Source: Acidobacteriota bacterium
Lineage (GTDB): Bacteria; Acidobacteriota; Thermoanaerobaculia; Thermoanaerobaculales; Thermoanaerobaculaceae
Length of the DNA stretch: 38,920 bases
NCBI GenBank assembly: GCA_004298115.1
Contig: SCRJ01000113.1
Location: forward strand, 1-38,920
Reading direction: 5' to 3'
Part shown: piece after piece, positions 10,742-38,920 of the stretch
Numbering within the stretch: position 1 is the stretch's first letter
How the letters are laid out: every line of letters begins with the position of its first letter
The notes under the pieces: generated by a model
Seen by the model: only the letters and a program-made list of their open reading frames with translations
Told to the model about the DNA's origin: nothing
Databases searched by the model: none
Position numbers and translations under genes: made by a program

Positions 10742-11533
10742 GTGATCCGGATCATACGGGAGCTGTGGCGGTGGCGCCGGCTGGTCGGCGAGCTGGCGAG
10801 GCGGGACTTCAAGGCCCGCTACGCCGGCTCGGCGCTCGGCGCCGCCTGGTCGGTGCTCGAGCCGCTGGTGCAGTTCGCCCTCTACCTGACCGTGTTCGGC
10901 GTCTTCCTTGGCATGCGACTTGAAGGGAACGCCGGCGTGGGCAACTTCGGGCTCTACCTGATCAGCGGACTCGTGCCGTTCGCCGCGTTCCAGGAGTCGG
11001 TCGTGCGCGCGACCGGCCTGGCCCGCGAGCGCGTGGAGCTCGTCCGCCACGTCAACGTCCCCCTCGAGGTCCTGCTCGCCGGGTCGCTGGCGGCCGTGTT
11101 CGCCCGCCAGGGGGTGGCGCTGGCCATCGTCATCGCGGTGGCGGCCGCGGCGGGCACGGTCACCGCGGGCGGGTTGCTCTGGCTGCTGGCCGGGATCGCG
11201 GTGCTGACGGTCACGGTGTTCGGGCTGGCGCTCGGCCTGGTCGTCGTCGGGGCGTTCCTGCCCGACCTCGCGCAGGTCGTCGGCACTGCGACGATGGTGC
11301 TGTTCTTCCTCACCCCGATCGTCTACCCCGTGTCGCAGGTGCCGCACGCCGTCGCGGGCTACATGCCCGCGAACCCCCTCTGGGGTATCCTTTCCTGTTT
11401 CCGGACCGCGCTCGTGGGCGGTCCGCCGCCCGCGGGGCCGTTCGCGCTGGCAGCGGCGTGTGCGGCCGCCTTCTTCGTCCTCGGGGCGCTGGTGTTCGAG
11501 GCGCGTCGCCGCCAGGTGCCCGACCTGGCCTAG
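10742..11533 (+). CDS. ABC-2 type polysaccharide export permease (Wzm/TagG-like)
   Basis: The 263-residue protein is the membrane subunit of an ABC exporter for surface polysaccharide. It has an N-terminal cytoplasmic stretch with LVGELARRDFKARYAGSALG, the amphipathic lead-in typical of Wzm/KpsM/TagG proteins. About six membrane segments follow, and the family motif FFLTPIVYPVSQVP is present near residue 190. The length fits (about 260). The start is the GTG at 10742, with no strong SD. The matching ATPase with a C-terminal glycan-recognition domain is encoded at 21450, some 10 kb away, with three secreted-protein genes between. Export of an O-antigen-like glycan to the periplasm is inferred from the pair and from the glycosyltransferases downstream. 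Confidence 0.85.
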   Translation: MIRIIRELWRWRRLVGELARRDFKARYAGSALGAAWSVLEPLVQFALYLTVFGVFLGMRLEGNAGVGNFGLYLISGLVPFAAFQESVVRATGLARERVELVRHVNVPLEVLLAGSLAAVFARQGVALAIVIAVAAAAGTVTAGGLLWLLAGIAVLTVTVFGLALGLVVVGAFLPDLAQVVGTATMVLFFLTPIVYPVSQVPHAVAGYMPANPLWGILSCFRTALVGGPPPAGPFALAAACAAAFFVLGALVFEARRRQVPDLA

Positions 11534-11579
11534 CCAAGCGTTGCAACCGCCGGCGGCGAGCCGGCTCGGAGGGTACGAG

Positions 11580-13292
11580 ATGAACCTGAGAAACACGACA
11601 ATTCTGGCAACCGCGATCCTGCTCCCGGCCCTCGGGTTGGCGCAGGCGATCCAGAGGCCGCCGGTCCCGCCGGTCCCGCCGGCCGCGCCACCCCCGCAGG
11701 GCACGGCGGCGCCGTCGCAAGGGCAGGGTCTGCTCGAGCCGCCCCCGGGCCTCGAGAACAAGGCGAGGCCGATCGTCCAGATGGAGAGCTACGACCAGTG
11801 GGCGAAGAAGTACTACAAGGTCTTCACGATCCCCAAGAAGGACGCGATCCCGCTCGGCAAGAACCGGGTCCGCCCGATGAGGCTGATCAACGTGGTCCTC
11901 GAGATCGTCGGCGAGAAGGGCGACGACTACCTCGTCCGCAACCTGCCGCCGGAGGACCCGCAGGCGGTCGGGCACGACACTTGGTGGCGGAACGAGGGGA
12001 CCGAAATCTTCATGAGGATGAAGAACGACTACTTCAAGGACAAGTACCTGATCGTGGACAACCCCGACGTGCCGCCGCCGTTCGTGGACAAGGTGCGGTT
12101 CGCGCTCCGCGACCAGGGTCTCCCCCACGGCGGCCGCTGGCAGATGTCGTTCGACATCGCGGACATGAACGGGGACGGGCTCCCCGACCTCGTCTTCGGG
12201 CCGCAGCGGACGGGGGAAGAGGCGACAGGGTACATCTTCCTCCAGCAAAAGGACCACAGCTGGCAGCTGTGGCGCGACACCAAGTGGCCGACCAGGGGCC
12301 TGAAGCTCGACTACGGCACGGTGCGGGTCGCCGATTTCGACGGCGACGGCAACAAGGACATCGCGATCGCGTGCCACTTCTCCAAGACCTACGTCCTGTA
12401 CGGCAACGGCAAGGGCGACTTCACGCGCTTCGTGACGGTGCCGCAGACGAACCAGGGGATGACCTCGCGGGCGCTGACGGTCGGGGACTTCAACGGCGAC
12501 GGGCGGCCGGACATCGCCACCTACGCCGAGGTGGACCTCGACATGGGCTCGACCTCGCGGATCACGAGCGGCCTCGTGAACGTCGCGCTCAACCTGCCGT
12601 CCGGCTGGAAGGCGGTCGCCAAGGACTTCTTCCCCGAGGGGATCCAGGGCGACTGGCTCACCGCGGCCGACGTGCTGGGCGTCGGGAGCGACCAGATCCT
12701 GCTCACGTCGCGCGCCCAGAACGTCATGGACCTCGTGTTCCGCAACGGCGGCGGCGGCGAGAAGTGGGACTCCACGGCCCGGCTCTCGTTCCCGGTCAAC
12801 GCCTACGTCCTCGCCAACGCCGTCGGCCCGCTCGACCGCTTCAAGCAACCCGACCTGCTGGAGTGTTTCGAGCAGTTCAACCCGTGGAAGGTCGAGCCGC
12901 CGACGCAGGCGTGCGTGATCTACCGCTTTCACGACGCCCAGGGCCGGCCGCTCCTGACGCCGGACCGGACCGTGCTCTTCCAGGAGAAGGTCGAGTACCA
13001 GAACTACCAGGCGGCCGCGATCGGCGACATCGACGGCGACGGCCGCAACGACATCGTGGTGGCGACCAGCACCGGCAAGGTGCGGGTCTTCCTGCAGGGG
13101 GCCGACGGCCAGTTCTACGAGCAGATGACCCCGGGCATGGACCGGCCCGGCACGGTCTACTTCGACGTCAAGATCGCGGACCTCTACGGCGACGGCAAGG
13201 GCGAGATCGTCCTCGCCGGCTCCCCGGCGAAGGAGCAGGGCGGCGGGGTCTGGGTGTACCAGCCGCTCCCGGTGCGGCCGGTGGCCCCTTGA
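11580..13292 (+). CDS. Secreted FG-GAP/VCBS repeat protein
   Basis: The 570-residue protein starts with a signal peptide (MNLRNTTILATAILLPALGL, likely cut near AQA). A Pro-rich linker follows (PPVPPVPPAAPPP). The body has repeated calcium-loop motifs of FG-GAP/VCBS propellers: DMNGDGLPDLVFG, DFDGDGNKDIAIA, DFNGDGRPDIATY, DIDGDGRNDIVVA and DLYGDGKGEIVLA. These build an integrin-alpha-like beta-propeller outside the cytoplasm. The ATG at 11580 follows GGAGG with a six-base gap. It starts 47 bases after the permease stop and may be cotranscribed with it. Function is unknown beyond an extracytoplasmic propeller; a binding or adhesive role is inferred from the fold. Confidence 0.85.
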   Translation: MNLRNTTILATAILLPALGLAQAIQRPPVPPVPPAAPPPQGTAAPSQGQGLLEPPPGLENKARPIVQMESYDQWAKKYYKVFTIPKKDAIPLGKNRVRPMRLINVVLEIVGEKGDDYLVRNLPPEDPQAVGHDTWWRNEGTEIFMRMKNDYFKDKYLIVDNPDVPPPFVDKVRFALRDQGLPHGGRWQMSFDIADMNGDGLPDLVFGPQRTGEEATGYIFLQQKDHSWQLWRDTKWPTRGLKLDYGTVRVADFDGDGNKDIAIACHFSKTYVLYGNGKGDFTRFVTVPQTNQGMTSRALTVGDFNGDGRPDIATYAEVDLDMGSTSRITSGLVNVALNLPSGWKAVAKDFFPEGIQGDWLTAADVLGVGSDQILLTSRAQNVMDLVFRNGGGGEKWDSTARLSFPVNAYVLANAVGPLDRFKQPDLLECFEQFNPWKVEPPTQACVIYRFHDAQGRPLLTPDRTVLFQEKVEYQNYQAAAIGDIDGDGRNDIVVATSTGKVRVFLQGADGQFYEQMTPGMDRPGTVYFDVKIADLYGDGKGEIVLAGSPAKEQGGGVWVYQPLPVRPVAP

Positions 13293-15011: not shown

Positions 15012-15083
15012 GTGCGCTGCAACACAGGCGCCTGCTGGACAAACCCAAGTCGTTGGCGTAAAGTCAGTTGTCGGAGGTCGACG

Positions 15084-18000
15084 ATGCCACGAACCGTTGT
15101 CAAGACGCGATGCTCACTTGCGACCGCAGCGGCGGCCGGGTTGCTGGCCCTGCTCGGTGCACGCGGCGCCGCGGCGCAGTGCTACAACGGGGACTCGTAC
15201 ATCTACGACCTGTGCGCCACCGAGACCAGCGGCACGATCTACGACACCAGGGGGGCGTTGCACGGCTTCGAGGTGAACGCCGAGGGGCACGAGTTCCTGA
15301 TCGCGACCCTCAAGGCCGACCTCACCATCTGGGACGTCACGAACCTGGCCCCCGGCAGCCTCACCCCGAGGGTGGCCTCGTCGCTGCACATCCCCTGGGA
15401 CGGCGTCAAGCTTGGAGCGGACAGCCACTGGCCGTACACCGACCACCTGCCGAATATCGCGACGCTCGCGAACTACCCGTACGCCCTCGCCTCGATGTAC
15501 GACTTCGGCTGGGACTTCCTCCACGTCGGCGCCACCTCGCAGGGGTTCCTCGGGAACGGCTACAAGCCGGCCGCGCAGCTCACCAACGGCACGTACGTCA
15601 GCGCGGCGCTGTTCGAGGTCGGCGGCATCGCCTACGCGGCCGGCCAGCAGCTCGACCAGGCGAGCATCGCGGCCAACGACAAGTCGGTCCGCATCTACAC
15701 GCTGGGCAGCTACAACAACCCCTCGGCGCCCCCGGGCTCGGCGACGATGGGCCAGGGCGTCCGGGTGCCCGCCGGCTCGGCGGGCGACGGGGCGTACGCC
15801 GGCTTTCCCCTCGCGCTCGGGAGCAATCAGCTCTGGGCCTACTACGACTCCACGAGCGGCAAGACGTTCCTGTTCGTCCGCTACATCACCGGCGGGGGGC
15901 TCCTGATCGTGGACGTGAGCACCCCCAGCCAGCCGCAGCCCGTCACCTGGATTCAGAGCGACTCCACGCTGTTCGCCGGCAACTGGGCGGTGGACTCGGA
16001 CAACCAGACGCTCTGGGTGGGGGACCCGACCCATCCGATCATCCACCCCTACCAGATCGTTGTGGGCAGCGTGCTCGGCCTGGCGACGGTGACGCTGAAC
16101 GCCGGGACCCCGTTCCCCTACTGGGGCGACGGGACGGCCAGCGCGTACGGGACCGTGATCAGCGCGCGGGGCGGCCTCCTCGTCGCCGCCTCCGGGTACA
16201 AGATCGGCTACCTGAGCCTGCTGGGCGGCGGGACGCCGACGCCGATGGCGAAGCAGACGCCGTACACCGACCTCTCGGGGCGGATCTGCGCCAACTCCGC
16301 GTACAACGAGAGCGTCAACGGCATCACCGCGTTCAGGATCGCGGGCAACTACTTCGCCTGCCGCTCGATGATCGTCTCCGCCGACATCGTCGGCATCAAC
16401 AACGCCTGCATGTCCACCACGCCGGTGCCGGGGTTCTCGATCTCCGGCGGCGACGCCGCGGCCGCCTGCAACCTCACCGCGGCCGAGAACGGGTTCCCGG
16501 GCGACACTCTCACCATCACCGACCAGTCCGGCGGGGTGTGGAGCACGGGCGGCTCGCTCGACATCCAGAGCCCGCCGGGCTCCACGATCGGGACGTCGTA
16601 CGGCGGCTCGTTCCCGGCGACGATCACGCAGCACGGCTCGGTGCAGTGGCCCTCCTCGCCGAGCACGCCGCCCGGCGACTTCACCGTCGTCGAGACGATC
16701 TCGGGCGGCACCCCGAACCAGGCGAGCAAGACCCTCACCCTCTGCGCCGCCCCGAAGGCGACGCTGACCGTGAACGTGGGCGGGACCGCCTGCGTCAACC
16801 CCGCGACCGGGTGCAACGGCCTGGTCAACGACGGTGTGGTCCTCGGCAACACCGCCCAGGGGCACCCGGCGGTCGCCGTCGGGCCAACGTACTTCTACCA
16901 GGCGGCGAGCGACCCCTCGGCGTCGCAGGGCTCGTCGTTCTCGCTCGCGGCGAAGACGACGTACACCGTCGGCGTCGTCGTCCCGTACTCGTTTACCGCG
17001 CCGAACGACCCGAACTGCTCCAACGCGCTCTTCGGCGCCAACGTGCCCGCGACCCCGTACCACGCCTGCTCGGTCGGCACGATCGTCGCCGGGTACGGCG
17101 CCGCGAGCTTCGAGGTCCAGCAGCCCGCCGGCGCGAAGGTCGCCGACGCCTTGCAGGCGGGGAACGTGCTCGTGGACCAGCCGGTGACCCTCAAGTTCAC
17201 CGGCCGCGTCGCGACCGGCGACACCCCGAACTTCACCTGGACCGGCATCGGGATGGCGGGGCAGCCGGCGTGCGTCTACTCCGGCGCGCCGAGCTACACC
17301 GGCACCCTGTGCACGATCCCGGCCGGCGCGCTCACCGTCGGCCCGGCGCAGAGCTGGGGCCTGACGATGGCCGTCTGCTCCGGCGGCGGGGGGTTGGGGA
17401 GCGCCTGCACGACGCTCGCCGACACGGTCACCTCGCCGCCGGTGAGCGTGACCCCGAGCGCGTACTCGTTCGCGTTCACGGTCTCGCCGGCCACGACCAA
17501 CATCGGCGGCACGGTCTCGATCACGCTCACCAACGCCATCCCGCCGCCGGGGGGGTTCACCTCGCTGACGTTCAACCTCGGCGGCACGACGTGCGACCTC
17601 GTCACCCAGAAGTCGGTGCAGTGCGGCAGCATCTTCGGCGGCAACCAGTGCCAGGTGACCGGGTCGCCGATCCTGACGTACACCTACGGCGCGAGCGAGG
17701 CGGGGAAGGTGGAGACGATCACCGCGACCGCCTTGTACGGCTCCGGCCAGACGCTCACCTCGCCCTCGACGGGGCAGGTGGCCGTCACGACCAGCGGCGC
17801 CTGCCCGTGCCCGAGCGTCACCACCACGGTGAACGGCCCGAACACGGCGCCGGTCAACCAGACCGTGCAGTTCTCGGCGAGCGCCAGCTCGACCGCCGCG
17901 ATCACTGGCTACAGCTGGACGTTCGGCGACGGCGGCAGCGCGACCGGGCAGAGCGCGAGCCACACCTACACCAGCAGCGGGCTGTACACGGTCCGGGTGA

Positions 18001-21000
18001 CGGCGACGAACTCGTGCGGCCAGACCGGCAGCGCGTCCTACTCGATCCAGGTCGGCGGCGGAGGCGACGGCAACCTGACGATCACCCCGAGCCCGGCGAC
18101 CGTCAACCCGGGCAGCCCGGTGACGTTCACGTTCTCGCCGGGGGTGAGCCGGAGCGGCGACCAGGTCACGATCACCTTCGGGGACGGCACGCAGGCGCAA
18201 GTGAGCTACATCGCGGCGTTCTGCAGCGTGGCGAGCCCGTGCAACATGGTCACCCACCCCTACTCGACCCCGGCGAGGTACACCGTCACGGCGAGCGGGA
18301 CGGTGAGCGGCGTTGCCGTGGGTGGCTCGACCTCGGTGACGGTTCTCTCCAGCTGTGCCCTCCCGTCGGCCCCGGCCGCCTCGTTCACCTTCACGCCGGC
18401 CGCGCCGCGCGTCGGCCAGGTCGTGGGCTTCGCCGACACCTCGTCGGGGACCCCGACCTCCTGGGCGTGGGCGTTCGGCGGCCCCGGCGTGGCCGGCACC
18501 TCGCTGGGAATGGTCCACACCGCCGCCACCGGCAACCTCGCGATCACGCCGAACCCGGGCACCGCGGCGGTCGGGCAGACCGTCATCTTCACCTTCTCTC
18601 CGGCGCTGACGGCAATCAACGATTCCCTCAGTTTCAACTTCGGCGACGGCACGACGACACCGATCTCGTACAACCCGAGCCTGTGCGGCGGCGGGTGCAG
18701 CGCGATCTCGCACGCGTACTCCGCCGCCGGCACGTACACCGTGTCGGCCAGCGGGGCGGCGGGCGGCGTGTCGGTGTCGGGGAGCAGCTCGGTCACGGTC
18801 AGCGGCGCGGGCGGGGGCAGCCTCACCATCACGCCGAGCCCGGCCAACGCGGCGATCGGCCAGACCGTCACGATTGCTTTCTCGCCGGCCGTCGGCCAGA
18901 CCGGCGACTCCGTCGTCATCACCTTCGGCGACGGCACCTCGCAGACGGTGTCGTTCCCGGGGTGTCAGACCAGCGGTGGCTGCAACGTCGCCAGCCACGC
19001 CTACGCGGAGGCCAACACCTTCATCGTGACCGGCAACGGCACGGCGGGGGGCGCCGGCGTGACCGGCAGCGCCACGGTCGTCGTCTCCGCCGGCGGCAGC
19101 GGCGGGAGCTCGACCGCGCAGAACCCGAGCTACACGTTCACCGCCCCGGGCACCTACACCGTGACGCTGACCGCCACGAACTGCAAGGGTTCGACCCAGG
19201 CGTCGCAGCAGGTGACCGTGCTGCCGACCTGCGACCAGAAGGCCCCTCCGACGCCGGACTTCACCTGGCCCACCGGCGCGGTGGCCGGGTTCCCGGAGCA
19301 GCAGCAGCCGTACGTCGGACAGCAGATCACGCTCACCGACGCCTCGACCGGCAGCCCGACGTCGTGGCACTGGTACGACTTCAACGAGCTGGCGATGGAC
19401 CGGACCGTGATGACGCCGACGTTCACCTTCACCTGGCCCACCAACCTGCCCGCAGGCGCCAAGAACCTGCGCATGACCGCCGCTAACTGCTTCGGCGCCT
19501 CGGCGGAGGTCATGAAGACCATGACGATCTACCCCGACGTGCGCCACGTCGTCGCCGACTTCTCCTGGAGCGACGGCACGCTGGCGACCGGCGCGCCGGT
19601 CACGCTCACGGCCGCCACCGGCGACGCGTACGGGAACCCCGACACCTTCACTTGGACGTTCGACGACGGCAGCACGCAAACCGGCCCGTCGGTGACTCAC
19701 ACCTATACCTGTGCCGGGTCGCACCGGGTGACGCTGGCCGCGTCGCGCAGCTACTCCGCCGCGGTTCCTCCGGGGACGGCCTCGCACACCCTCACGGTGA
19801 CCGGCAAGCAGTGCGGGCCGGATGCGGTCATGACGGTGGACGCCGCCAAGACCAACGGTCTCAACGGCACCACCTGGCTCACCGACGTGCGCATCTTCAA
19901 CCCCTCGTCCCAGCCCTCGCAGATCACGGTGCAGCTCCTGCCGGTCGGTTGGAACAACAGCTCGCCGCCGAGCAAGGTCAATACGCTGTCGCCGCATGCC
20001 ACGTGGGTGCTCAACGACGTCCTGGCGTGGGCGCAGAGCGGGGGGGTCGTCGGCACCGACGTCAAGAAGGCGGCGCTGCGCATCGTGTACGACAACCCCG
20101 AGAACGTGGCGCCGATCCTGGTCAGCGAGACCTACACGACGGCGCCCTCCGGCGGCGGCACCTACGGCCAGCTCACGCCGGGGATCGAGGTGGTGCCGAA
20201 CACCACGCCACCCATTCTGTGGATCACCGGAGTCCGCAACAACGGCACCACGAGCGGGTTCCGGACGAACTACAGCCTGCTCAACCTGCGCGACACGGCC
20301 GTCTCGAACCTGCAGTTCACGCTTCTTGATCCCACCGGGAAGTCGCTCGCCACCCAATCGGTGAACCTCGGGGCGTTCGAGTACCGGCAGGACTCGCTCG
20401 CCAACCTGTTCGGCGGCGCGTCCGCCGCGGTCAGCTCCGACCCGCTCGCCGTCAAGGTGGTGGTGCCGGCCGACTCCGACGTGCAGGCGTACGCCTCGGT
20501 GGTGGACAACCTCACCGGCGACCCGGTGCTGGTCCCGGCGGTGCCGCCGCCGTCGGTCCCGATCTTCATCCCCGCGGTGGCGTACACGCCGGGCGTCAAC
20601 GGGACGGTGTGGCGCAGCGACCTGCAGCTCACCAACCCAGACGCGGCGCCGCACACCTGGGCCGTCACCTACACGCCGGGCGGGCAGAACCCGCTGCCGA
20701 TCGTCACGCAGAAGCCCACCGTTGCTGCGCAGAGCACCGTGCGCTACGACGACCTGCTGTCGTGGCTGTACGGCAACCGGCTGACCGATGCCGACAAGAC
20801 CAGCGGCGTGGTCGAGATCACGCCCGCCGACGGGAGCGGCGTGTACCCGATCGTGCAGGCGCGCTCGTTCAACCAGACCGGCAACGGCACGTTCGGCCAG
20901 AACATCCCGCCGATCACGCCGGACATGGGGGTCGCGGCCGGGCAGGGCAAGCGCCTGCTGCTCACCGGGATGTCGAGCGAGGATATCGCCCGCACCAACC

Positions 21001-21320
21001 TCGGCTTCGTGAACCTCTCTGCTACGTCTGGCGTCAACTTCTCGGTGATGTTCTACGACCAAGGTGGCAACGTGCTCAACCCCGTCGATGACCAGCAGAA
21101 CCCGATCCCGTACACGTTCTCGCTCGGCGTCGGCGGGTGGGACCAGGACAAGCTGGAGAACCGGTTCAGGAACGTCTTCAAGACCGGGCTCCCGGCGAAC
21201 CTGGCCGCCATTTCGGCGGTGATCCAGGTGACGGACGGCGGCCCCGGGACGGTGTACGCCACCGTGATCGACAACCTGACCGGCGACCCCAACTTCATCC
21301 TGGCGCAGCCCGCCCCGTAA
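15084..21320 (+). CDS. Giant secreted multi-PKD protein with propeller and duplicated C-terminal module
   Basis: The 2078-residue protein starts with a signal peptide (ATAAAAGLLALLGARGAAAQ). Residues about 60-450 are LVIVD/propeller-like strands (FEVNAEGHEFLIATLKADL, LTIWDVTNL). Ig-like strands follow to about 910. PKD1 (916-989) is canonical, with YSWTFGDGG and HTYTSSGLYTVRVTATN. Three related PKD-like repeats start at residues 997, 1151 and 1246. A second PKD is split: its first half is at about 1094-1133 and its second at about 1339-1379. Two more PKDs cover about 1385-1575. The tail (1578-2078) is a duplicated module, each copy closing with NLTGDP. There is no LPXTG motif or membrane anchor. 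The ATG at 15084 follows GGAGG by six bases. It is likely a cell-surface or extracellular binding protein; ligand unknown. Confidence 0.88.
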   Translation: MPRTVVKTRCSLATAAAAGLLALLGARGAAAQCYNGDSYIYDLCATETSGTIYDTRGALHGFEVNAEGHEFLIATLKADLTIWDVTNLAPGSLTPRVASSLHIPWDGVKLGADSHWPYTDHLPNIATLANYPYALASMYDFGWDFLHVGATSQGFLGNGYKPAAQLTNGTYVSAALFEVGGIAYAAGQQLDQASIAANDKSVRIYTLGSYNNPSAPPGSATMGQGVRVPAGSAGDGAYAGFPLALGSNQLWAYYDSTSGKTFLFVRYITGGGLLIVDVSTPSQPQPVTWIQSDSTLFAGNWAVDSDNQTLWVGDPTHPIIHPYQIVVGSVLGLATVTLNAGTPFPYWGDGTASAYGTVISARGGLLVAASGYKIGYLSLLGGGTPTPMAKQTPYTDLSGRICANSAYNESVNGITAFRIAGNYFACRSMIVSADIVGINNACMSTTPVPGFSISGGDAAAACNLTAAENGFPGDTLTITDQSGGVWSTGGSLDIQSPPGSTIGTSYGGSFPATITQHGSVQWPSSPSTPPGDFTVVETISGGTPNQASKTLTLCAAPKATLTVNVGGTACVNPATGCNGLVNDGVVLGNTAQGHPAVAVGPTYFYQAASDPSASQGSSFSLAAKTTYTVGVVVPYSFTAPNDPNCSNALFGANVPATPYHACSVGTIVAGYGAASFEVQQPAGAKVADALQAGNVLVDQPVTLKFTGRVATGDTPNFTWTGIGMAGQPACVYSGAPSYTGTLCTIPAGALTVGPAQSWGLTMAVCSGGGGLGSACTTLADTVTSPPVSVTPSAYSFAFTVSPATTNIGGTVSITLTNAIPPPGGFTSLTFNLGGTTCDLVTQKSVQCGSIFGGNQCQVTGSPILTYTYGASEAGKVETITATALYGSGQTLTSPSTGQVAVTTSGACPCPSVTTTVNGPNTAPVNQTVQFSASASSTAAITGYSWTFGDGGSATGQSASHTYTSSGLYTVRVTATNSCGQTGSASYSIQVGGGGDGNLTITPSPATVNPGSPVTFTFSPGVSRSGDQVTITFGDGTQAQVSYIAAFCSVASPCNMVTHPYSTPARYTVTASGTVSGVAVGGSTSVTVLSSCALPSAPAASFTFTPAAPRVGQVVGFADTSSGTPTSWAWAFGGPGVAGTSLGMVHTAATGNLAITPNPGTAAVGQTVIFTFSPALTAINDSLSFNFGDGTTTPISYNPSLCGGGCSAISHAYSAAGTYTVSASGAAGGVSVSGSSSVTVSGAGGGSLTITPSPANAAIGQTVTIAFSPAVGQTGDSVVITFGDGTSQTVSFPGCQTSGGCNVASHAYAEANTFIVTGNGTAGGAGVTGSATVVVSAGGSGGSSTAQNPSYTFTAPGTYTVTLTATNCKGSTQASQQVTVLPTCDQKAPPTPDFTWPTGAVAGFPEQQQPYVGQQITLTDASTGSPTSWHWYDFNELAMDRTVMTPTFTFTWPTNLPAGAKNLRMTAANCFGASAEVMKTMTIYPDVRHVVADFSWSDGTLATGAPVTLTAATGDAYGNPDTFTWTFDDGSTQTGPSVTHTYTCAGSHRVTLAASRSYSAAVPPGTASHTLTVTGKQCGPDAVMTVDAAKTNGLNGTTWLTDVRIFNPSSQPSQITVQLLPVGWNNSSPPSKVNTLSPHATWVLNDVLAWAQSGGVVGTDVKKAALRIVYDNPENVAPILVSETYTTAPSGGGTYGQLTPGIEVVPNTTPPILWITGVRNNGTTSGFRTNYSLLNLRDTAVSNLQFTLLDPTGKSLATQSVNLGAFEYRQDSLANLFGGASAAVSSDPLAVKVVVPADSDVQAYASVVDNLTGDPVLVPAVPPPSVPIFIPAVAYTPGVNGTVWRSDLQLTNPDAAPHTWAVTYTPGGQNPLPIVTQKPTVAAQSTVRYDDLLSWLYGNRLTDADKTSGVVEITPADGSGVYPIVQARSFNQTGNGTFGQNIPPITPDMGVAAGQGKRLLLTGMSSEDIARTNLGFVNLSATSGVNFSVMFYDQGGNVLNPVDDQQNPIPYTFSLGVGGWDQDKLENRFRNVFKTGLPANLAAISAVIQVTDGGPGTVYATVIDNLTGDPNFILAQPAP
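18072..19100 (+). repeat. Three PKD-like coding repeats, two nested inside another PKD
   Basis: Units start at about 18072, 18534 and 18819. They read N/S-L-x-I-TP-x-P, then FTFSP or IAFSP, then a TFGDGT-type turn, then HxYxxxxxYTVxASG-like ends. The first unit stands between PKD1 and PKD2. The second and third interrupt PKD2 between SWAWAFGG (ending about 18482) and STAQNPSYTFTAPGTYTV (from about 19110). Confidence 0.75.
19815..21317 (+). repeat. Tandem duplicated C-terminal module
   Basis: Two modules of about 240-255 residues follow each other (residues about 1578-1820 and 1826-2078). Each has a first half with NGTxWxxDLxxxNP and a second half with RTNYSLLNL or RTNLGFVNL, and ends YASVVDNLTGDP or YATVIDNLTGDP. 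The halves themselves look like related beta-sandwiches, giving an A-B-A-B arrangement. Confidence 0.7.
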
Positions 21321-28855: not shown

Positions 28856-28872
28856 ACGGCACGTTTCTTGCT
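28856..28872 (+). promoter_or_regulatory. Sigma-54-like promoter of the PEGA-domain gene
   Basis: ACGGCACG, then TTTC, then TTGCT matches the -24/-12 consensus YTGGCACG-N4-TTGCW except at the first two positions. GG (28858-28859) and GC (28870-28871) are separated by exactly ten bases. A start near 28883 lies 16 bases before the ATG at 28899. It sits in the only gap between the glycan operon and this gene. Confidence 0.5.
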
Positions 28873-31878: not shown

Positions 31879-34422
31879 ATGACGCACCCACGCTCGCCGG
31901 GGCTGGTCCCGGTCCTTACCTTCGGCGCGGTCGCTTTCCTGGTGGCATGCCTGTCGATCCTCGACATGTTCCTGCCGCGGCCCTACGACGGCGTCATCCT
32001 CGACCCCGACCGCAGCGAGCTGGTGGTGCGCGGGATCGCGCCGGGCTCGGGCGCGGCGGCGGCGGGGTTGCAGCCCGGGGACCGCATCGCGGGCGTCGGG
32101 CGCGAGGTCGTGCGCAATGCCTCCGAGGTCGCCCAGGTGTTGCAACGCCACCGGGTCGGCGAGCGGGTGCCCTATCTGCTCGAACGCGGCGGCGCCCTCC
32201 TCGAGCGCGAGGTCCAGTTGGGGCCGAGACAGCTGGGGACCGCGGCGTACCTGTACGCGTGCTTCTCCGGTTTCCTCTTCTTCTTCATCGGGCTGTACGT
32301 CCTCCTGCAGCGGCCCGACGAGGCCCAGGGCGGGCCCAGCCGTGTCTTCTTCACGCTCTGCACGCTCTTCCTCCTCTTCCTCGTCTGCCGTCTGCGGCCG
32401 GCTTCCTACTCGTGGATCGACGGCGTGGTGCTGACGACCGGAACGCTCTCGCTGTTGGTGCTGCCGGCCGCGTTCCTGCACTTCTTCCTCGTCTTTCCCC
32501 GGCGCCTGAAGCTGACTCTCGGCGGCGCGGCGGAGCCGGGCGAAGGCTCGGGTGGACGGTTCCTGCGGGCCGCGGAGGGGTTCGTCAACTCGTCCCCCAA
32601 TTTCTTCCGCCTGCTGTACCTGCTGCCGCCGCTCTTCTACGTGCTGACGCTGCTGATCGGATCGGTGTTCGCCGTCCACATCCGGGTGGTCTCCGGAGCG
32701 CCGATCTCGAACTGGGTGTTGATGGGCGACTACCTCGTTCTCGGGCTGCTGGCGTTGCTCGGCTCGCTGCTCCGCGCCGAAGAGGGGCGGGAGCGGAGGC
32801 AGATCGCGACCGTGTTCGTGGGCACCGTGGCCGGGGTGACGCCGTTTTTGGTGCTCGGCGTCGTGCTCCCCTCGCTGCTGCGCACGGACCGGTACCTGTT
32901 CTGGGGCGAGGTGCCGCTCACGCTGATCCCGCTCACCTTCGCCTACGCGATCGTGCGCTTCCAGTTCTTCGACATCCGGGTCATCGTCCGGAAGTCGCTG
33001 CTGTACACGCTGGCGACCGCCGTGGTGGCGGGGATCTACGGGCTGGGGATCGTCGTCTCGACGCTGCTGTTCTCCGGGACGTCGCCGTACTTCCCGCTCC
33101 TGCTCGCACTCGCGATCCTGGCGATCTTCGACCCGTTGCGCCGCCGCCTGCAGGAGCCCGTGGACCGGTTCTTCTTCCGCGAGGCGTACGACGCCCGGCG
33201 CGCCGTCGAGGACGTCAGCGCCGCCGTGGTGCGCGAGTTCTCGATCGACGGTCTCGAAGCGTTGCTGGCCACCCGCCTCTCGGAGATCATGCACCTCGAG
33301 TGGGCCGCGCTCCACGTCCGCGAGGGGAAGGTCATGGTGTCGCGAACGGCCCCGCCGCCGCTGCCGCGCGAACTGCCCGCACGGAGCCTGGTGATCGAAG
33401 AGCTCGGCCGCCTCGACGAGCCGGTCCGGCTCGGCGTGCTCGAACCGTTCAAGACGCTCGACGCGGAGTCGCGCCGGCTGCTCGAGCAGCTCGCCGCGCT
33501 CGGCGCCCGCCTCCTCGTCCCCTTGCGCACCCGCGGCCAGCTCCATGCCGTGCTCTCGCTCGGTCCCAAGCGCTCCGAGGAGGAGTTCGGCAAGGACGAC
33601 CTCCAGCTCGTGCGCACGCTCGCCAACCAGGGAGCGGTCGCGCTCGAGAACGCTCGCCTGCTGCGCGACCGCACCCGCCAGGTCGAGCTCGAGAAGGAGC
33701 TCGAGATCGCGCGCCGGGTGCAGTTCTCCCTCATCCCGGCGACGCTTCCGGCGCCGCCGGGATGGCAGGTGGCGGCCCGCTGCGTCCCCGCCCATCAGGT
33801 CGGAGGCGACTTCTACGACGCGCTCGCCGGCGGCGGCAACGGTTCGGTGGCGCTTGTCGTCGGAGACGTGTCCGGCAAGTCGGTGCCGGGCGCGATGATG
33901 ATGGTCGCCGCGCGGGAAGTGCTCCACACCGCCGCCCTCGGCGGCGCCTCGCCGATTCAGATCCTCGAGGTCGCCAACCAGCGCCTGTACACCCCGGGGC
34001 GCCGGATGTTCGTGGCGCTGGCGTACCTGCTCGTGAACGCCGGCGGGTCGGGCGCCTACGCGCTGGCGGGCCAGCCGACGCCGCTGCTGCGCCGGGTCTC
34101 CGGCGAGGTCGAGGAGCTGCCTTCGCCCGTCCACCGGCTGCCGGTCGGCGCGCTGCGCGGAGCGAGCTGGGACCTGCTCCGGTTCGCGCTGCGCCCGGGG
34201 GACACGGTGCTGCTGTACTCCGACGGCCTGACCGACGCGCGCACGCCGGACGGCGAGCCGTTCGGCGACGAGCGCGTCGCGGAGATCCTCGCGCGCGGCG
34301 ACGGGGATCCCGCCGCGGTGGTGGACGCGATGTTGCGCGAGGTGGAGGCGTTCACGCTCGGAGCGGAGCCGTACGACGACATCACCCTGGTGGCGCTGCG
34401 CTGGCGCGGAGGCGTCGCGTGA
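31879..34422 (+). CDS. Membrane PP2C (SpoIIE/RsbU-type) phosphatase with PDZ, multi-helix and GAF domains
   Basis: The 847-residue protein has a single membrane helix (VPVLTFGAVAFLVACLSIL), then a PDZ-like domain at about 45-105 (VVRGIAPGSGAAAAGLQPGD). About seven membrane helices follow to about 420, in a 7TM-like block. A GAF-like domain (about 435-590) and a short coiled coil (LEKELEIARRVQFSL) lead to the SpoIIE-type PP2C domain (about 610-845). The PP2C metal motifs are present: VGGDFYDAL, GDVSGKSVPGAMMM, YSDGLTDAR and YDDITLVAL. It should dephosphorylate a STAS protein in response to an envelope signal. The ATG at 31879 was chosen; an in-frame GTG lies at 31870. Its stop overlaps the next GTG (GTGA at 34419-34422). 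Confidence 0.88.
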   Translation: MTHPRSPGLVPVLTFGAVAFLVACLSILDMFLPRPYDGVILDPDRSELVVRGIAPGSGAAAAGLQPGDRIAGVGREVVRNASEVAQVLQRHRVGERVPYLLERGGALLEREVQLGPRQLGTAAYLYACFSGFLFFFIGLYVLLQRPDEAQGGPSRVFFTLCTLFLLFLVCRLRPASYSWIDGVVLTTGTLSLLVLPAAFLHFFLVFPRRLKLTLGGAAEPGEGSGGRFLRAAEGFVNSSPNFFRLLYLLPPLFYVLTLLIGSVFAVHIRVVSGAPISNWVLMGDYLVLGLLALLGSLLRAEEGRERRQIATVFVGTVAGVTPFLVLGVVLPSLLRTDRYLFWGEVPLTLIPLTFAYAIVRFQFFDIRVIVRKSLLYTLATAVVAGIYGLGIVVSTLLFSGTSPYFPLLLALAILAIFDPLRRRLQEPVDRFFFREAYDARRAVEDVSAAVVREFSIDGLEALLATRLSEIMHLEWAALHVREGKVMVSRTAPPPLPRELPARSLVIEELGRLDEPVRLGVLEPFKTLDAESRRLLEQLAALGARLLVPLRTRGQLHAVLSLGPKRSEEEFGKDDLQLVRTLANQGAVALENARLLRDRTRQVELEKELEIARRVQFSLIPATLPAPPGWQVAARCVPAHQVGGDFYDALAGGGNGSVALVVGDVSGKSVPGAMMMVAAREVLHTAALGGASPIQILEVANQRLYTPGRRMFVALAYLLVNAGGSGAYALAGQPTPLLRRVSGEVEELPSPVHRLPVGALRGASWDLLRFALRPGDTVLLYSDGLTDARTPDGEPFGDERVAEILARGDGDPAAVVDAMLREVEAFTLGAEPYDDITLVALRWRGGVA

Positions 34423-35960
34423 GGGCGGGCGCCCGCGAGGGGTGGCGCCGCGCCAGGCTGGAGACGGTTCTCGACCTTTCGCTGGCGCTCGCCGGTCCGC
34501 GGCAGGAGGGCGAGGTGGTGGAGGAACTGGTGCAGCGCGCGGTCGGCCTGCTCGACGCGCGCGCCGGGATCGCGGTGTCGCTGCTGCCTTCGCTGGTGCC
34601 CGCGACCGTGGTCGCGGTCGGGTGGCCGGCCGAGTCCGGCGCGGCCGCGCGACTGGTGGCCTCCGCCGCGCTGCAGCAGGTTCGCGCCGGCGAGGTGGCG
34701 CGCGTCGCCGGCAGCGTTCTCGGCGTCCCGTTCGCCGAGGTGCTCGCGGCGCCGTGCCTGTGGAGGGAGGAGCTGATGGGGGTCGTGGCGGTCGCCGACA
34801 AGGAGGCGCGCGAGGGGGTGGCCCGCTTCGACGACGAAGACGTCACCTTCCTGCGCTCGCTCGCGCTCCTGGCGGCGCCCGCGATCGCGTCCTCGCGTCT
34901 GCTCGAGGAGGCGGAGCGCACGCGGCTGTTGCTCGAGGAGGAGAACCGGGCGCTGCGGCTGGGGGCCGGCGAGGAGGCCGGCCTCGTCGGGCAAGCCCCC
35001 GCGTTTCGCCGGGTCGTCGAGCTCGCGCGGCGCGTGGCGTCGGCGGACGTGACGGTGCTCGTGCGCGGCGAGTCCGGCACCGGCAAGGAGCGGCTCGCGC
35101 GCCTGGTGCACGCGCTCTCTCCCCGCCACGCCGGGCCGTTCGTGCCGCTCAACTGCGCGGCGGTGCCGGAGACGTTGCTCGAGGCCGAGCTTTTCGGCAT
35201 CGAGCGCGGGGTGGCGACCGGCGTCTCGGCGCGCCTCGGCAAGTTCGAGCTGGCCGGCGGCGGCACCCTCTTCCTCGACGAGATCGGCGACCTCACGCCT
35301 GCGCTGCAGGCCAAGTTGCTGCGCGTGGTGCAGGAGCGCGAGGTGGAGCGGGTCGGCGGGCGGCAGCGGATCACGGTGGACGTCAGGCTGGTGACCGCGA
35401 CCAACCGCGACCTCGAAGCGATGCTGGCCGATGGCGAGTTCCGTGAGGACCTCTACTATCGCCTCCGCGTGGTCGAGCTCACGCTGCCGCCCCTGCGCGA
35501 GCGGCGCGAAGACATTCCGCTCCTCGCGCAGCACTTCGTTCGCCTCCACGGGCGCCGCATGGGCCGCGAGGGTTTGTCGCTCGCCCGGCCCGCGCTCGAG
35601 TTGCTGCTTCGCCACGACTTCCCCGGCAACGTGCGCGAGCTCGAGAACCTCCTGGAGGCGGCGGCCGCCCTGGCGTCGGGCGACCGCGTGGAGGCCGCGG
35701 ATCTCCGCCTCGCGATGGGCGTCGGGCGGGCGGGCGCCGCGGCCTCGTCCGGGACGCTCGACGAGGCCGTGCGCGCGCACGTGCTGCGCGCGGTGGAACG
35801 CAGCGGCGGCAACCGGGTGGCGGCGGCGCGGGCGCTGGGAATCGACCGCACCACGCTGTACCGGATGCTGCTGAGGTGGAATGCAACATTAGATGCAAAA
35901 CGCAACGAACCGGCGAAGAGTGCGCAGGCGCCGCGCTCCCGGCGGAGGACGCGGCCGTGA
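34419..35960 (+). CDS. GAF-AAA+-Fis sigma-54-type regulator with altered GAFTGA loop
   Basis: The 513-residue protein is built as a bacterial enhancer-binding protein. A GAF-like sensor covers about 10-165 and a short coiled coil follows (AERTRLLLEEENRALRL). The AAA+ domain (about 185-410) has Walker A GESGTGKE at 217-224, Walker B GGTLFLDEIG, and the arginine-finger region REDLYYRLRV. A Fis-type helix-turn-helix ends the protein (GNRVAAARALGIDRTTLYRM). The sigma-54-contacting loop reads GVATGV at 264-269 instead of GAFTGA, losing the key Phe and final Ala. The GTG start overlaps the PP2C phosphatase stop, so the two are translated together. A near-consensus sigma-54 promoter lies 94 bases downstream of its stop. 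Confidence 0.88.
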   Translation: MRAGAREGWRRARLETVLDLSLALAGPRQEGEVVEELVQRAVGLLDARAGIAVSLLPSLVPATVVAVGWPAESGAAARLVASAALQQVRAGEVARVAGSVLGVPFAEVLAAPCLWREELMGVVAVADKEAREGVARFDDEDVTFLRSLALLAAPAIASSRLLEEAERTRLLLEEENRALRLGAGEEAGLVGQAPAFRRVVELARRVASADVTVLVRGESGTGKERLARLVHALSPRHAGPFVPLNCAAVPETLLEAELFGIERGVATGVSARLGKFELAGGGTLFLDEIGDLTPALQAKLLRVVQEREVERVGGRQRITVDVRLVTATNRDLEAMLADGEFREDLYYRLRVVELTLPPLRERREDIPLLAQHFVRLHGRRMGREGLSLARPALELLLRHDFPGNVRELENLLEAAAALASGDRVEAADLRLAMGVGRAGAAASSGTLDEAVRAHVLRAVERSGGNRVAAARALGIDRTTLYRMLLRWNATLDAKRNEPAKSAQAPRSRRRTRP

Positions 35961-35992
35961 GCGCCGCTGACCGTTGCAATCTGCATCGTTGC
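35883..35992. promoter_or_regulatory. Repeated GCAAC/GTTGC motifs, possible activator-binding sites
   Basis: GCAAC occurs at 35883-35887 and GCAACG at 35902-35907, and CGTTGC at 35972-35977 and 35987-35992 in the opposite orientation. The distances to the -24 element (36054) are about 60 to 170 bases, in the range of upstream activating sequences. The first pair lies in the end of the regulator gene. Confidence 0.35.
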
Positions 35993-36053: not shown

Positions 36054-36070
36054 TTGGCCCGGGGCTTGCA
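36054..36070 (+). promoter_or_regulatory. Sigma-54 (-24/-12) promoter of the partner-switching operon
   Basis: TTGGCCCG, then GGGC, then TTGCA differs from YTGGCACG-N4-TTGCW at one position (A to C). GG (36056-36057) and GC (36068-36069) are exactly ten bases apart. The predicted start is near 36081. It lies just downstream of the AAA+ regulator gene, in a locally AT-richer gap. Confidence 0.65.
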
Positions 36071-36083
36071 AACCTGAGCGGGC

Positions 36084-36257
36084 ATGATGCCGTTGCCCAC
36101 CGCAAGCGTCCTCGCCAACCGGGTCCTGGAGCCGCTCAGCCACCCCTGGGCGGTGCTCGGTGGCGGGTTGCTCGGCGGCGGGGCGCTGTTTCCGGGGGCC
36201 GTCGGCGACGGCGCGCGCCTCGCGTGGCGCCTCCTCTGCCTTCTCCTGGCGCTCTGA
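36084..36257 (+). CDS. Possible small membrane protein
   Basis: A 57-residue frame opens with two ATGs (36084 and 36087) and ends at TGA 36255-36257. It has two hydrophobic stretches, HPWAVLGGGLLGGGALF and RLAWRLLCLLLAL, so it could be a two-helix membrane protein. It lies between the sigma-54 promoter and the anti-sigma gene, 24 bases before the latter. The predicted transcript start is only about three bases upstream, so translation would have to be leaderless; no SD is seen. I do not recognise it. It could be a leader rather than a gene. Confidence 0.4.
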   Translation: MMPLPTASVLANRVLEPLSHPWAVLGGGLLGGGALFPGAVGDGARLAWRLLCLLLAL

Positions 36258-36281
36258 TGCGCCCGCACGGAGGCGACCTTC

Positions 36282-36707
36282 ATGGCTGAGCCCGTGCGGT
36301 TGCGCCTCGTCCTCCCGCGGGTCGCCCGCGCCGAATTGATCGCGGGCGACGCGGTCGAGGATCTCGGGCGTCGCGTCGACTTTCCCCGTGATACCCTTGC
36401 GGAGGTCAAGTTGGCAGTGGTGGAGGCGTGTCTGAACGCTCTCGAGTACGGCGCCGGTGAGGTCGAGGTGGAGCTCACCGTTCATCCGGACAGCGCCAAC
36501 CCGTGGATCGAAGCGGCCGTGGTGGATCACGGGCCAGGCTTCGACCCCGGAGGGCAGCCTCGCCCGGTGCTGGCGGCCAAGCTGCACGCGCGCCGCAAGC
36601 GCGGCTGGGGGCTCGAGCTGATCCGGCGCCTGATGGACGAGGTGGAGATCACGTCCCGCCCCGGCTTGACCAGGATCCACATGACCAGGCGGACGGGAGG
36701 GGCGTGA
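36282..36707 (+). CDS. Anti-sigma regulatory factor, RsbW-type HATPase kinase
   Basis: The 141-residue protein has the GHKL fold of RsbW/SpoIIAB kinases: N box EVKLAVVEACLNALEYGAG, G1 box VVDHGPGFDPG, and G2 box RKRGWGLELIRRLMDEV. These proteins bind and hold a sigma factor and phosphorylate the partner STAS protein. The next gene encodes that partner and overlaps by GTGA (36704-36707). No sigma factor gene is present in the window, so its target is unknown; some relatives control non-sigma targets. Loss of the terminal extension seen in some family members is not evident. Confidence 0.9.
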   Translation: MAEPVRLRLVLPRVARAELIAGDAVEDLGRRVDFPRDTLAEVKLAVVEACLNALEYGAGEVEVELTVHPDSANPWIEAAVVDHGPGFDPGGQPRPVLAAKLHARRKRGWGLELIRRLMDEVEITSRPGLTRIHMTRRTGGA

Positions 36708-37066
36708 CGGTGGAAACGTTCGAGCTTTCGATCGCACAGCGGCAGGGCGAGCTGGCCGTGCTCGAGGTGGCCGGCTACATCAACAACGAGGGGGGCGAGG
36801 CGATCGCGCGCGAGGCCCGCACCCTCCTCGACGCCGGCTGTCGCACGCTCCTGCTCGACCTGCACGCGACCCGGATCATCAACTCGATCGGCATTTCGCT
36901 GCTCCTCGAGGTGCTCGAGCGCACGATCGAGGTCAAGGGCACGCTGGCCTTCTGCTGCCTCACGCCCAGCATCGCCAAGACGTTCCAGATCATGGGGCTG
37001 GCTCAGTACACGCGGATCTTCCCCGACCGCGCCGCGGCCCTCGTGGAGCTCGTCAAGGTCCGATGA
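36704..37066 (+). CDS. STAS-domain anti-sigma factor antagonist (RsbV-type)
   Basis: The 120-residue protein is a single STAS domain: LAVLEVAGYINNEGGEAI, then LLLDLHATRIINSIGISLLLE. The serine in NSIGIS is at the usual phosphorylation site (commonly DSSG). The preceding Asp is Asn here, a mild departure. In the phosphorylated form it is inert; dephosphorylated by a PP2C enzyme it would bind the HATPase and free the target. The GTG at 36704 overlaps the kinase stop; GGGAGGGG lies just upstream and would fit the GTG at 36710 better, so the start is uncertain by two codons. The stop overlaps the ATG of the phosphatase. Confidence 0.9.
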   Translation: MTVETFELSIAQRQGELAVLEVAGYINNEGGEAIAREARTLLDAGCRTLLLDLHATRIINSIGISLLLEVLERTIEVKGTLAFCCLTPSIAKTFQIMGLAQYTRIFPDRAAALVELVKVR

Positions 37067-38607
37067 GCGACGTTCTGCGCGTTCTCGAACTCGCGTTTGG
37101 GGCCGCGAGGGAGGGTGGCGCCCCTCTCCCGCACGCCGTGCTCGAGGGACTGCTCCGGGGGACCGGTGCGGCTGGCGGCGCGATCGGGCGCGGGAACGAG
37201 GTGCTGGCGCGGACCGGGGGGGTGCCGAACGAGCCTCGCCGCGCGCCGCTGCCTGCCGGGCGCGACGCGTTCTGGCTCGAGCTCGACGGCGCGCCGGAGC
37301 CGGCCGAGCCGGTGCGGGTCGCGGCCGGCGTGGTGCTGGGCAACTGGGTGCTGCGCGAGGAGCTCAAGCAAGCGCGTTTCGCGGAGCGCCGGCGGTTGTG
37401 GGAGATCGAGTCGTTGCGGGCGATCGCGGAGGCCCTGGGGGGCACCCTGGAGCCGGCGCGCATCGCCGAGGAACTCCTGATGCACGCCGCGGCGCTGCTC
37501 GACGCGCGTCGCGGCGAGGTGTGGCTGACCGCCGGCGGCGGCGCGGGTCCGGCGTTGCGGCTGGCCGGCGCCGGGGCGACCGCGGCGTGCGCCAGCGGCG
37601 ACTGCGTCATGGCCGCGCGCGTCGGCGGCGAGGTGTTGCGCGCGGACGAGGTGGCGGCGCTGCCCGACCACGGCCTGCTCGAGCCGGGGCGGCTCGCGGT
37701 CCCGGTGGTGGGCCGGCGCGGGCGTCTCGGCGTGCTGGCGCTCGCCGAACGGGAGGTCCGGGGCGGCACGGCGCCGTTCGCGCCGACCGACGCCGAGACG
37801 CTGGCCCTGTACGCCTCGCAGGCGGCAGTGGCGCTGGAGAACGCCACGCTCCACCGCGAAGCCCTCGAGCAGGAGCGCACGGAACGCGAGCTCGAGCTCG
37901 CCGCCACGATCCAGCGCCAGCTCCTGCCGACGGCCATCCCCACTCCCGCCGGCTTCGACCTCGCCGCCAAGAGCGAGCCGTCGCGCCGGGTGGGGGGCGA
38001 CGTCTACGACGTGATCGCGACCCCGAAGGGGCTCTTCCTCATGCTGGGCGACGTGGCGGGGAAGGGGATCCCGGCGGCGTTGATGGCGGCCTCGCTGCAG
38101 GCCGCCGTCCGCCTCCTCGTGCAGGAGTCGCCGCCGCTCGACGAGCTGACCCGCCGGCTTCACCAGCACGTGCTGGCGTCCACGCCGGACAGCAAGTTCG
38201 CGACCGTGTTCCTCGCCTACCTCGCCACCGACGGCGCACTCGAGTGGGTCTCCGCCGGCCACAATCCGGTCCTGCTGGTCGGGCCGTCGGGCGGGTGCGA
38301 GCGCCTGCTGGCGGTCGGTCCGCCGCTCGGGCTGTTGGAGGACTCGCACTACCCGTCGAGCCGGGCCGTGATGGTCCCGGGCTCGGTGCTGCTCGCGTAC
38401 ACGGACGGTCTCTCGGAAGCGCCGGCCCCGGGGGATGACGGCGCCGACTTCGGCGTCGAGGGGATCACCGCGCACACCGTCGCCCGCCGCGGCGAGGCAA
38501 TGGAGCGCCTCGTGGCGGAGCTGTTCACGGCGGTGGCGGTCCACACCGGGGGCGCCCCTCCGCACGACGATCGCACCGTGCTCGCAGCCCGGCGCCTCGC
38601 CGGGTGA
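37063..38607 (+). CDS. GAF-PP2C (RsbU-type) phosphatase
   Basis: The 514-residue protein has a poorly conserved N-terminal part (1-115), a GAF domain (about 120-265: SLRAIAEALGGTLEPARIAE), a coiled-coil linker (LEQERTERELELAATIQRQL) and a SpoIIE-type PP2C domain (about 295-510). Metal motifs are intact: VGGDVYDVI, GDVAGKGIPAALMAA, YTDGLSEA and HDDRT. It is soluble, unlike the membrane phosphatase at 31879. It should dephosphorylate the STAS protein whose gene overlaps it by ATGA at 37063-37066, completing a kinase-antagonist-phosphatase partner switch. A strong terminator follows. Confidence 0.9.
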   Translation: MSDVLRVLELAFGAAREGGAPLPHAVLEGLLRGTGAAGGAIGRGNEVLARTGGVPNEPRRAPLPAGRDAFWLELDGAPEPAEPVRVAAGVVLGNWVLREELKQARFAERRRLWEIESLRAIAEALGGTLEPARIAEELLMHAAALLDARRGEVWLTAGGGAGPALRLAGAGATAACASGDCVMAARVGGEVLRADEVAALPDHGLLEPGRLAVPVVGRRGRLGVLALAEREVRGGTAPFAPTDAETLALYASQAAVALENATLHREALEQERTERELELAATIQRQLLPTAIPTPAGFDLAAKSEPSRRVGGDVYDVIATPKGLFLMLGDVAGKGIPAALMAASLQAAVRLLVQESPPLDELTRRLHQHVLASTPDSKFATVFLAYLATDGALEWVSAGHNPVLLVGPSGGCERLLAVGPPLGLLEDSHYPSSRAVMVPGSVLLAYTDGLSEAPAPGDDGADFGVEGITAHTVARRGEAMERLVAELFTAVAVHTGGAPPHDDRTVLAARRLAG

Positions 38608-38820: not shown

Positions 38821-38848
38821 TTGACATTGGCGAGCGGGTGAATATGCT
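38821..38848 (+). promoter_or_regulatory. Sigma-70 promoter of the window-edge gene
   Basis: TTGACA (38821-38826), a 16-base spacer and TATGCT (38843-38848). The predicted start coincides with the ATG at 38855, suggesting a leaderless mRNA. GC falls sharply from about 38800 onward. Confidence 0.55.
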
Positions 38849-38854
38849 GTGGGT

Positions 38855-38920
38855 ATGGAAGAATGCGCTCTCGTACAGGAAGAATGGCGATGGGTTGAAG
38901 GTCTCCTGCCTGACGACCTT
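38855..38920 (+). CDS. Probable IS4-type transposase, N-terminal fragment (partial)
   Basis: Twenty-two codons are open to the window edge. EEWRWVEGLLPDDL matches the usual opening of IS4-family transposases, where a Trp-x-x-V and LLPxDL come before a Ala/Arg-rich stretch. This is weak evidence from so short a piece. The drop in GC and the position between a terminator and the window edge fit a mobile element. An alternative frame (ATG at 38844) is also open to the edge. The left end of the element, if present, would lie near 38795-38820 (AGGCGCTAACTTTAG). Confidence 0.4.
   Translation, partial: MEECALVQEEWRWVEGLLPDDL

Follow-up and report, generated by a model that had tools for sequence, protein, structure and literature searches.

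The stretch of DNA analyzed here (the window; 38,920 nucleotides) is one contig of a 3.97-Mb genome from the class Thermoanaerobaculia (phylum Acidobacteriota). Close to its end lies a -24/-12 promoter element of the sigma-54 type, flanked upstream by the gene for a regulator with the domain architecture of bacterial enhancer-binding proteins (EBPs) and downstream by the genes of a partner-switching system. Comparison of this locus with its counterparts across the class leads us to propose, with a probability of about 0.8, a two-operon module: an activator operon would be expressed from a housekeeping-type promoter, and the sigma-54 promoter would serve a small protein and a partner switch acting on a target encoded elsewhere. 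The promoter, the activating sites, their link to this particular activator, the small gene and the conserved gene order are all supported by sequence comparison.

The order on the plus strand is as follows: a PDZ-transmembrane-GAF-PP2C gene, the GAF-AAA+-Fis regulator gene, a gap of 94 bases, the promoter element, a small open reading frame (ORF), and genes for a HATPase, a STAS protein and a GAF-PP2C protein, the last three of which overlap one another (Table 1). The comparative set consists of 54 loci from the class (41 from close and order-level relatives and 13 more distant), all of which were brought into the same orientation before counting.

A sigma-54-type promoter element conserved across the class

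The element TGGCCCGGGGCTTGCA differs from the consensus TGGCACG-N4-TTGCW by a single mismatch (A to C), with exactly ten bases between the GG at 36056-57 and the GC at 36068-69, and predicts a transcription start near 36081. The coordinates and spacings given for it in the sequence-only reading, an earlier inspection of the window without database searches, are all correct, including the 94 bases that separate it from the end of the regulator gene. In the window alone, six sites match the consensus with at most two mismatches compared to 4.9 expected by chance, so the element had to be judged by its conservation. This lack of an excess is what would favor a chance match without function, an explanation that we consider extremely improbable given that it is contradicted by the conservation and control-window tests as well as by the palindrome and helix-covariation tests described below.

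Within the 420 bases before the HATPase gene, 34 of the 41 close and order-level loci contain a match with two mismatches or fewer, compared to 1.2 expected from dinucleotide-preserving shuffles. Across the class, the element precedes the operon in 45 of 54 loci, compared to 17 of 581 GC-matched windows taken from the same loci, and in most of the other loci the aligned position is occupied by a variant with three mismatches, which in two loci of genus g6 has GA instead of GC. Its position is exactly -227 in the same-genus genomes and about -190 in family f2, where the element is often a perfect match to the consensus. Among the outcomes that the sequence-only reading named as refuting its claim is the disappearance of the element from close relatives in which the operon persists. 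No loss was found within the genus, and the only order-level loss (genome G020, discussed below) is in a genome that also lacks the activator. The sigma-54 reading is thus supported by the conserved element, its position, synteny and co-loss in one relative. The genome encodes RpoN (PF04963, 4.1e-55), and rpoN and HATPase orthologs were each found in 57 of 60 relatives.

The location of all these genes on the same strand and the mere 94 bases between the regulator stop codon and the element would also fit a minor promoter, with read-through of the upstream operon, or a housekeeping promoter that escaped detection, providing most of the switch transcripts. We regard such an arrangement as very unlikely. 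The element and the upstream sites are conserved far beyond the surrounding DNA over class-level distances, indicating that selection acts on both, and in locus L050, where several kilobases separate the regulator and switch genes, the sigma-54 site remains with the switch.

Upstream sites covary with the recognition helix of the adjacent regulator

The sequence-only reading had noted paired GCAAC/GTTGC motifs 60-170 bases upstream of the element and proposed that they are activating sites of the adjacent GAF-AAA+-Fis protein. Half-sites of this type are indeed found at 35882, 35892, 35901, 35973 and 35982, between 173 and 73 bases ahead of the element, and represent half-sites of the palindrome TGTTGCA-N3-TGCAACA. 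They form two groups: a distal cluster located inside the 3' end of the regulator gene, and a proximal palindrome that recurs among the loci far in excess of the shuffled expectation (Table 1). In the alignment of the genera of the family, the half-sites occupy positions -173, -163, -154, -82 and -73 relative to the element, within otherwise poorly conserved DNA, and the distance between the palindrome and the element is constant in most of family f1.

The palindrome tracks the Fis-type helix-turn-helix (HTH) domain of the regulator: it is present in 33 of 34 orthologs with the recognition helix DR[TS]TLYR, compared to 2 of 27 orthologs with other helices, several of which carry TGTGGC-type palindromes instead. 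A strict composite pattern (site, spacing and promoter with a gap of 50-80 bases) has one match in the genome under study, which is this locus; in most of the other matching genomes of the family, the match is at the same locus, and the backwards-pattern control yields none. With a gap of 80-110 bases, the composite scan of the same genome produced no match. No further candidate targets of the activator emerged in this genome from the scans with gaps of 50-110 bases, and the additional matches in five relatives are scattered and were taken as chance.

Genome G020 (locus L087, 9700-10500) can be considered a natural knockout: it lacks the regulator gene as well as the sites and the element, and it retains the small ORF, the kinase, the STAS protein and the phosphatase. 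The single protein of this genome with the GVATGV loop that distinguishes the regulator (see below) is a paralog of the FHA type located elsewhere. Taken together, the conserved positions, the helix covariation, the single composite match and the co-loss in G020 tie the sites and the promoter to the adjacent regulator. Binding of the sites by this GAF-AAA+-Fis protein is thus supported by site/helix covariation and co-loss, in agreement with the earlier proposal.

Elsewhere in the window, a second sigma-54-like element, CGGCACGTTTCTTGCT (28857-28872), precedes a gene for a secreted protein with a PEGA domain, 26 bases from its ATG (28899). Nine related loci (L076-L080, L084, L085, L046 and L043) have a comparable element in front of the same gene. 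These elements lack the TGCAAC-type site clusters, so that a different activator is likely.

An activator candidate with a non-canonical contact loop

The regulator combines the GAF, AAA+ and Fis-type HTH domains, as described in the sequence-only reading, and its Walker A and B motifs are intact. Its gene adjoins the partner switch in 50 of the 54 loci. What the earlier description overlooked is the L1 loop: the protein reads GIERGVATGV, with alanine in place of the essential phenylalanine of the canonical GAFTGA motif, and every readable ortholog has GVATGV. Among the further EBP loops that we read from this genome, GVATGV is absent, the sequences being GAFTGA, GSFTGA or similar, and the pattern ELFGIExGVATGV occurs once in the genome. 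In the phylum-wide sample, a protein with this pattern is encoded in 45 of 47 genomes of the class compared to 9 of 349 others. The class-wide ortholog is the one that adjoins a partner switch; paralogs with the same loop, of the FHA or GAF type, do not. Other GVATGV regulators of these two types were also seen in scattered Acidobacteriota (L216-L235), away from partner-switch genes. Among the 79 nearest EBPs in the genome collection, 13 precede HATPase, STAS and PP2C genes, and all of these are Acidobacterial orthologs; with the exception of one weak pair of matches, no GAFTGA protein among the 79 precedes such genes. Of the publications that we found, one names GVATGV (PMC4641369).

Several observations weigh against the proposed module as a whole. 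In mutagenesis experiments, the GAFTGA phenylalanine proved consistently essential, with tyrosine as the only usual substitute (reviewed in PMC7057263), and here the residue is alanine. Both genomes of genus g6 (L081 and L082) have TTGA rather than TTGC at the -12 position and keep the EBP gene and the activating sites. Locus L182 (G058) has no clear sigma-54 element before the switch and contains a long insertion, with a gap of about 6.4 kb between the EBP and switch genes. In addition, transcription from the predicted start would give the small ORF of the window hardly any 5' leader.

Considering the lack of the GAFTGA motif, we classify the protein as a variant AAA+ regulator of the EBP type and not as a canonical EBP. 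The label of likely activator given to it in the sequence-only reading is upheld with respect to the pairing of the protein with the sites and the promoter, but with GVATGV as the contact loop, its role as activator is putative. Family membership and the co-loss in G020 suggest that the protein would activate rather than repress; the competence of GVATGV with sigma-54, which we infer, is the main gap in the activator claim. A sigma-54-dependent promoter could also be opened by a GAFTGA protein encoded elsewhere, with the GVATGV protein binding the sites as an anti-activator or contributing one half of a mixed hexamer. The genome does encode many other Sigma54_activat proteins, mostly with GAFTGA or GSFTGA loops, and hetero-hexameric EBPs exist, namely HrpR/HrpS (PMC7057263). 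Nevertheless, we find this scenario unlikely: G020 lost the promoter and the sites together with the protein, as expected for a lost activator, the Walker motifs are intact, and the GVATGV protein DVUA0100 of Desulfovibrio vulgaris is likewise predicted by regulon analysis, from gene and site location, to act on sigma-54 promoters, although the genes reported to be under its control are those of type III secretion rather than of a partner switch (PMC4641369).

The small protein and the partner switch

The HATPase, STAS and PP2C genes that the sequence-only reading recognized downstream of the element are all confirmed by Pfam matches, but a 57-codon ORF between the promoter and the HATPase gene was missed. 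Judging by the ratio of nonsynonymous to synonymous differences (pN/pS), this small ORF is under purifying selection: pN/pS is 0.39 in frame compared to 1.29 and 2.43 in the other frames, with 0.27 for the HATPase gene, and 0.43 for the counterpart ORF in f2. In most loci of the class, including those of f1 and f2, an ORF of about 48-80 codons is found at this place, whose product contains a hydrophobic segment and ends in an L-x-L-x-L/F-like pattern. Homology across the families would be based on position and the C-terminal pattern rather than on full-length similarity. The protein, which is single-copy in the genome and showed no match to Pfam or NCBIfam families, is hydrophobic, with an amphipathic hydrophobic helix at the C-terminus. 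In the predicted structure, the C-terminal 18 residues form a helix with a predicted local distance difference test score (pLDDT) of 80-87, and the remainder is uncertain (mean pLDDT of 66). Hydropathy indicates that the protein is probably membrane-associated, and its place in the operon, together with its retention where the activator is lost, suggests that it works with the switch.

The HATPase motifs are conserved across the class loci. The phospho-acceptor loop of RsbV and SpoIIAA is DS[ST]G, with aspartate preceding the serine; here, the STAS loop is [IV][IV]NSIG[IV]S in all 54 loci, so that the serine is kept and the preceding position is asparagine. A strict motif count had raised the possibility that the downstream PP2C phosphatase is degenerate in most relatives, which we rejected given that in the alignment the sites are largely intact, with A/G and Y/F variation. 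In the loci examined, the operon is not flanked by genes for a sigma factor or an obvious effector. In loci L077 (13869-16661) and L046, the switch is followed by genes for an outer membrane porin of the FadL type and a lipase-like GDSL hydrolase, which may represent an output.

With no sigma factor or obvious effector encoded alongside, the switch might act on the activator itself or on its phosphatase partner, closing a feedback loop around the same promoter and activator. The linkage of the EBP and switch genes in most loci and the composite site, which appears to control this operon only, are compatible with such a loop. We nonetheless consider it somewhat unlikely as G020 retains the entire switch in the absence of the EBP, showing that the switch has a use independent of this protein.

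Upstream operon and genomic neighborhood

The first gene of the EBP operon encodes the membrane phosphatase. Conservation places its start at ATG 31879, directly ahead of which GTAGTATCGTTGTG is conserved in same-genus genomes, and the conserved GTAGTAT just before this start is the basis for reading a housekeeping-type promoter. Sigma-54 autoregulation of the phosphatase-EBP operon was considered and rejected as no such site was seen in the upstream alignment. The start of the EBP gene overlaps the preceding stop codon (GTGA).

Farther upstream of the module, the window encodes large surface-type proteins, namely, an FG-GAP repeat protein (11460-13292) and an ORF of 2102 codons with several PKD domains (15012-21320). 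At the other end (38833-38920), the contig terminates just within a new ORF that is preceded by TTGACA and TATGCT elements.

Table 1. Features of the regulatory module in the window
Feature	Position	Strand	Basis
PDZ - multi-transmembrane - GAF - SpoIIE/PP2C phosphatase, first gene of the EBP operon	31879-34422	+	Pfam PDZ_6, GAF, SpoIIE
GAF - AAA+ (Sigma54_activat) - Fis HTH regulator, proposed dedicated activator	34419-35960	+	PF00158 4.3e-64, HTH_8, GAF
L1 loop GVATGV (canonical GAFTGA)	35208-35225	+	all readable orthologs
Fis HTH recognition-helix region LGIDRTTLYR	35835-35864	+	site/helix covariation
Distal site cluster: TGCAAC 35882, GATGCA 35892, CGCAAC 35901	35882-35906	+	recurs at -173/-163/-154 from TGG across family genera
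Proximal palindrome CGTTGCAATCTGCATCG, consensus TGTTGCA-N3-TGCAACA	35972-35988	+	<=2 mismatches in 21/47 loci vs 0.08 expected (shuffles)
Sigma-54 -24/-12 promoter TGGCCCGGGGCTTGCA	36055-36070	+	45/54 loci vs 17/581 controls; shuffle test 34/41 vs 1.2 expected
Small protein, 57 amino acids, first gene after the promoter	36084-36257	+	pN/pS, position, conservation
Ribosome-binding site GGAGG of the HATPase gene	36269-36273	+	read in sequence, 8 bases before ATG 36282
RsbW-like HATPase (serine kinase)	36282-36707	+	PF13581 1.1e-23; N-box EACLN and DxGxGF intact
RsbV-like STAS protein, phospho-acceptor loop IINSIGIS	36704-37066	+	PF01740 9.7e-12
RsbU-like GAF - PP2C phosphatase	37063-38607	+	PF07228 1.3e-41; metal-binding motifs intact (alignment)

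Proposed mechanism

Considering the comparisons above, the locus is most likely a one-operon sigma-54 module that drives a partner switch. The first operon, encoding the membrane PDZ-GAF-PP2C phosphatase and the GAF-AAA+-Fis activator, would be transcribed from the housekeeping-type promoter. The activator can be predicted to bind the two clusters of TGCAAC-type sites upstream of the sigma-54 promoter and to open the promoter at the expense of ATP once its GAF domain senses a signal. The mRNA made from this promoter would encode the small protein of about 57 amino acids first, followed by the RsbW-type kinase, its STAS substrate and the GAF-PP2C phosphatase, which together would form a partner switch gating a target not encoded at the locus.

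Relation to known regulatory systems

In Vibrio fischeri, the sigma-54-dependent activator SypG drives the syp locus, which includes the STAS protein SypA and the kinase/phosphatase SypE (PMC3843225, PMC4517449, PMC12369376). There, as in the module proposed here, a sigma-54-dependent activator controls a locus with a STAS protein and a serine kinase/phosphatase, placing a transcription layer over a phosphorylation switch. Thus, sigma-54 control of partner-switch genes is already known, and the stacking of the two layers put forward in the sequence-only reading is supported but is not unprecedented. The differences make the present system a variant. SypG, a response regulator, receives its input through a histidine-kinase relay, SypE unites kinase and phosphatase activities, and the syp locus consists mainly of polysaccharide genes; here, the putative activator is a one-component GAF protein with GVATGV and an apparently single-operon regulon, the kinase and the phosphatase are separate proteins, a small protein leads the operon, the STAS loop is NSIG, and the arrangement is conserved class-wide. 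Chlamydia was considered as a precedent and rejected: in the passages considered, its partner switch acts on sigma-66, and no sigma-54 promoter is reported for the switch genes (PMC11619594, PMC7482065).

Like the RsbU-RsbV-RsbW and SpoIIAA-SpoIIAB systems of Bacillus, the operon combines a HATPase kinase, a STAS protein with a serine at the expected place and a PP2C phosphatase; unlike these, it has no cognate sigma factor gene within or beside it, carries the invariant NSIG loop and is preceded by a sigma-54-type promoter. The similarity to EBPs of the NtrC/NifA type extends to the GAF-AAA+-Fis layout, the Walker motifs, the upstream palindromes and the -24/-12 promoter, the difference being the uniform replacement of GAFTGA with GVATGV.

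According to textbook knowledge, an activator cannot engage sigma-54 without the GAFTGA phenylalanine. The chances appear evenly balanced that a class-wide EBP lineage opens ordinary sigma-54 promoters through the non-aromatic GVATGV loop, counter to the rule derived from mutagenized activators, and does so for one operon in which a new small membrane protein is coupled to a partner switch. Given that throughout the divergence of the class a GVATGV protein accompanies a conserved canonical sigma-54 promoter and sites that track its recognition helix, a single protein-promoter pair would suffice for a direct test of the phenylalanine rule. Proteins lacking the GAFTGA motif have been filtered out in at least one recent genome survey (PMC12316311). 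If the proposed mechanism holds, the module would be the second example, with an architecture of its own, of a phosphorylation switch placed under ATP-dependent transcription control, and it adds a conserved, uncharacterized family of small proteins.

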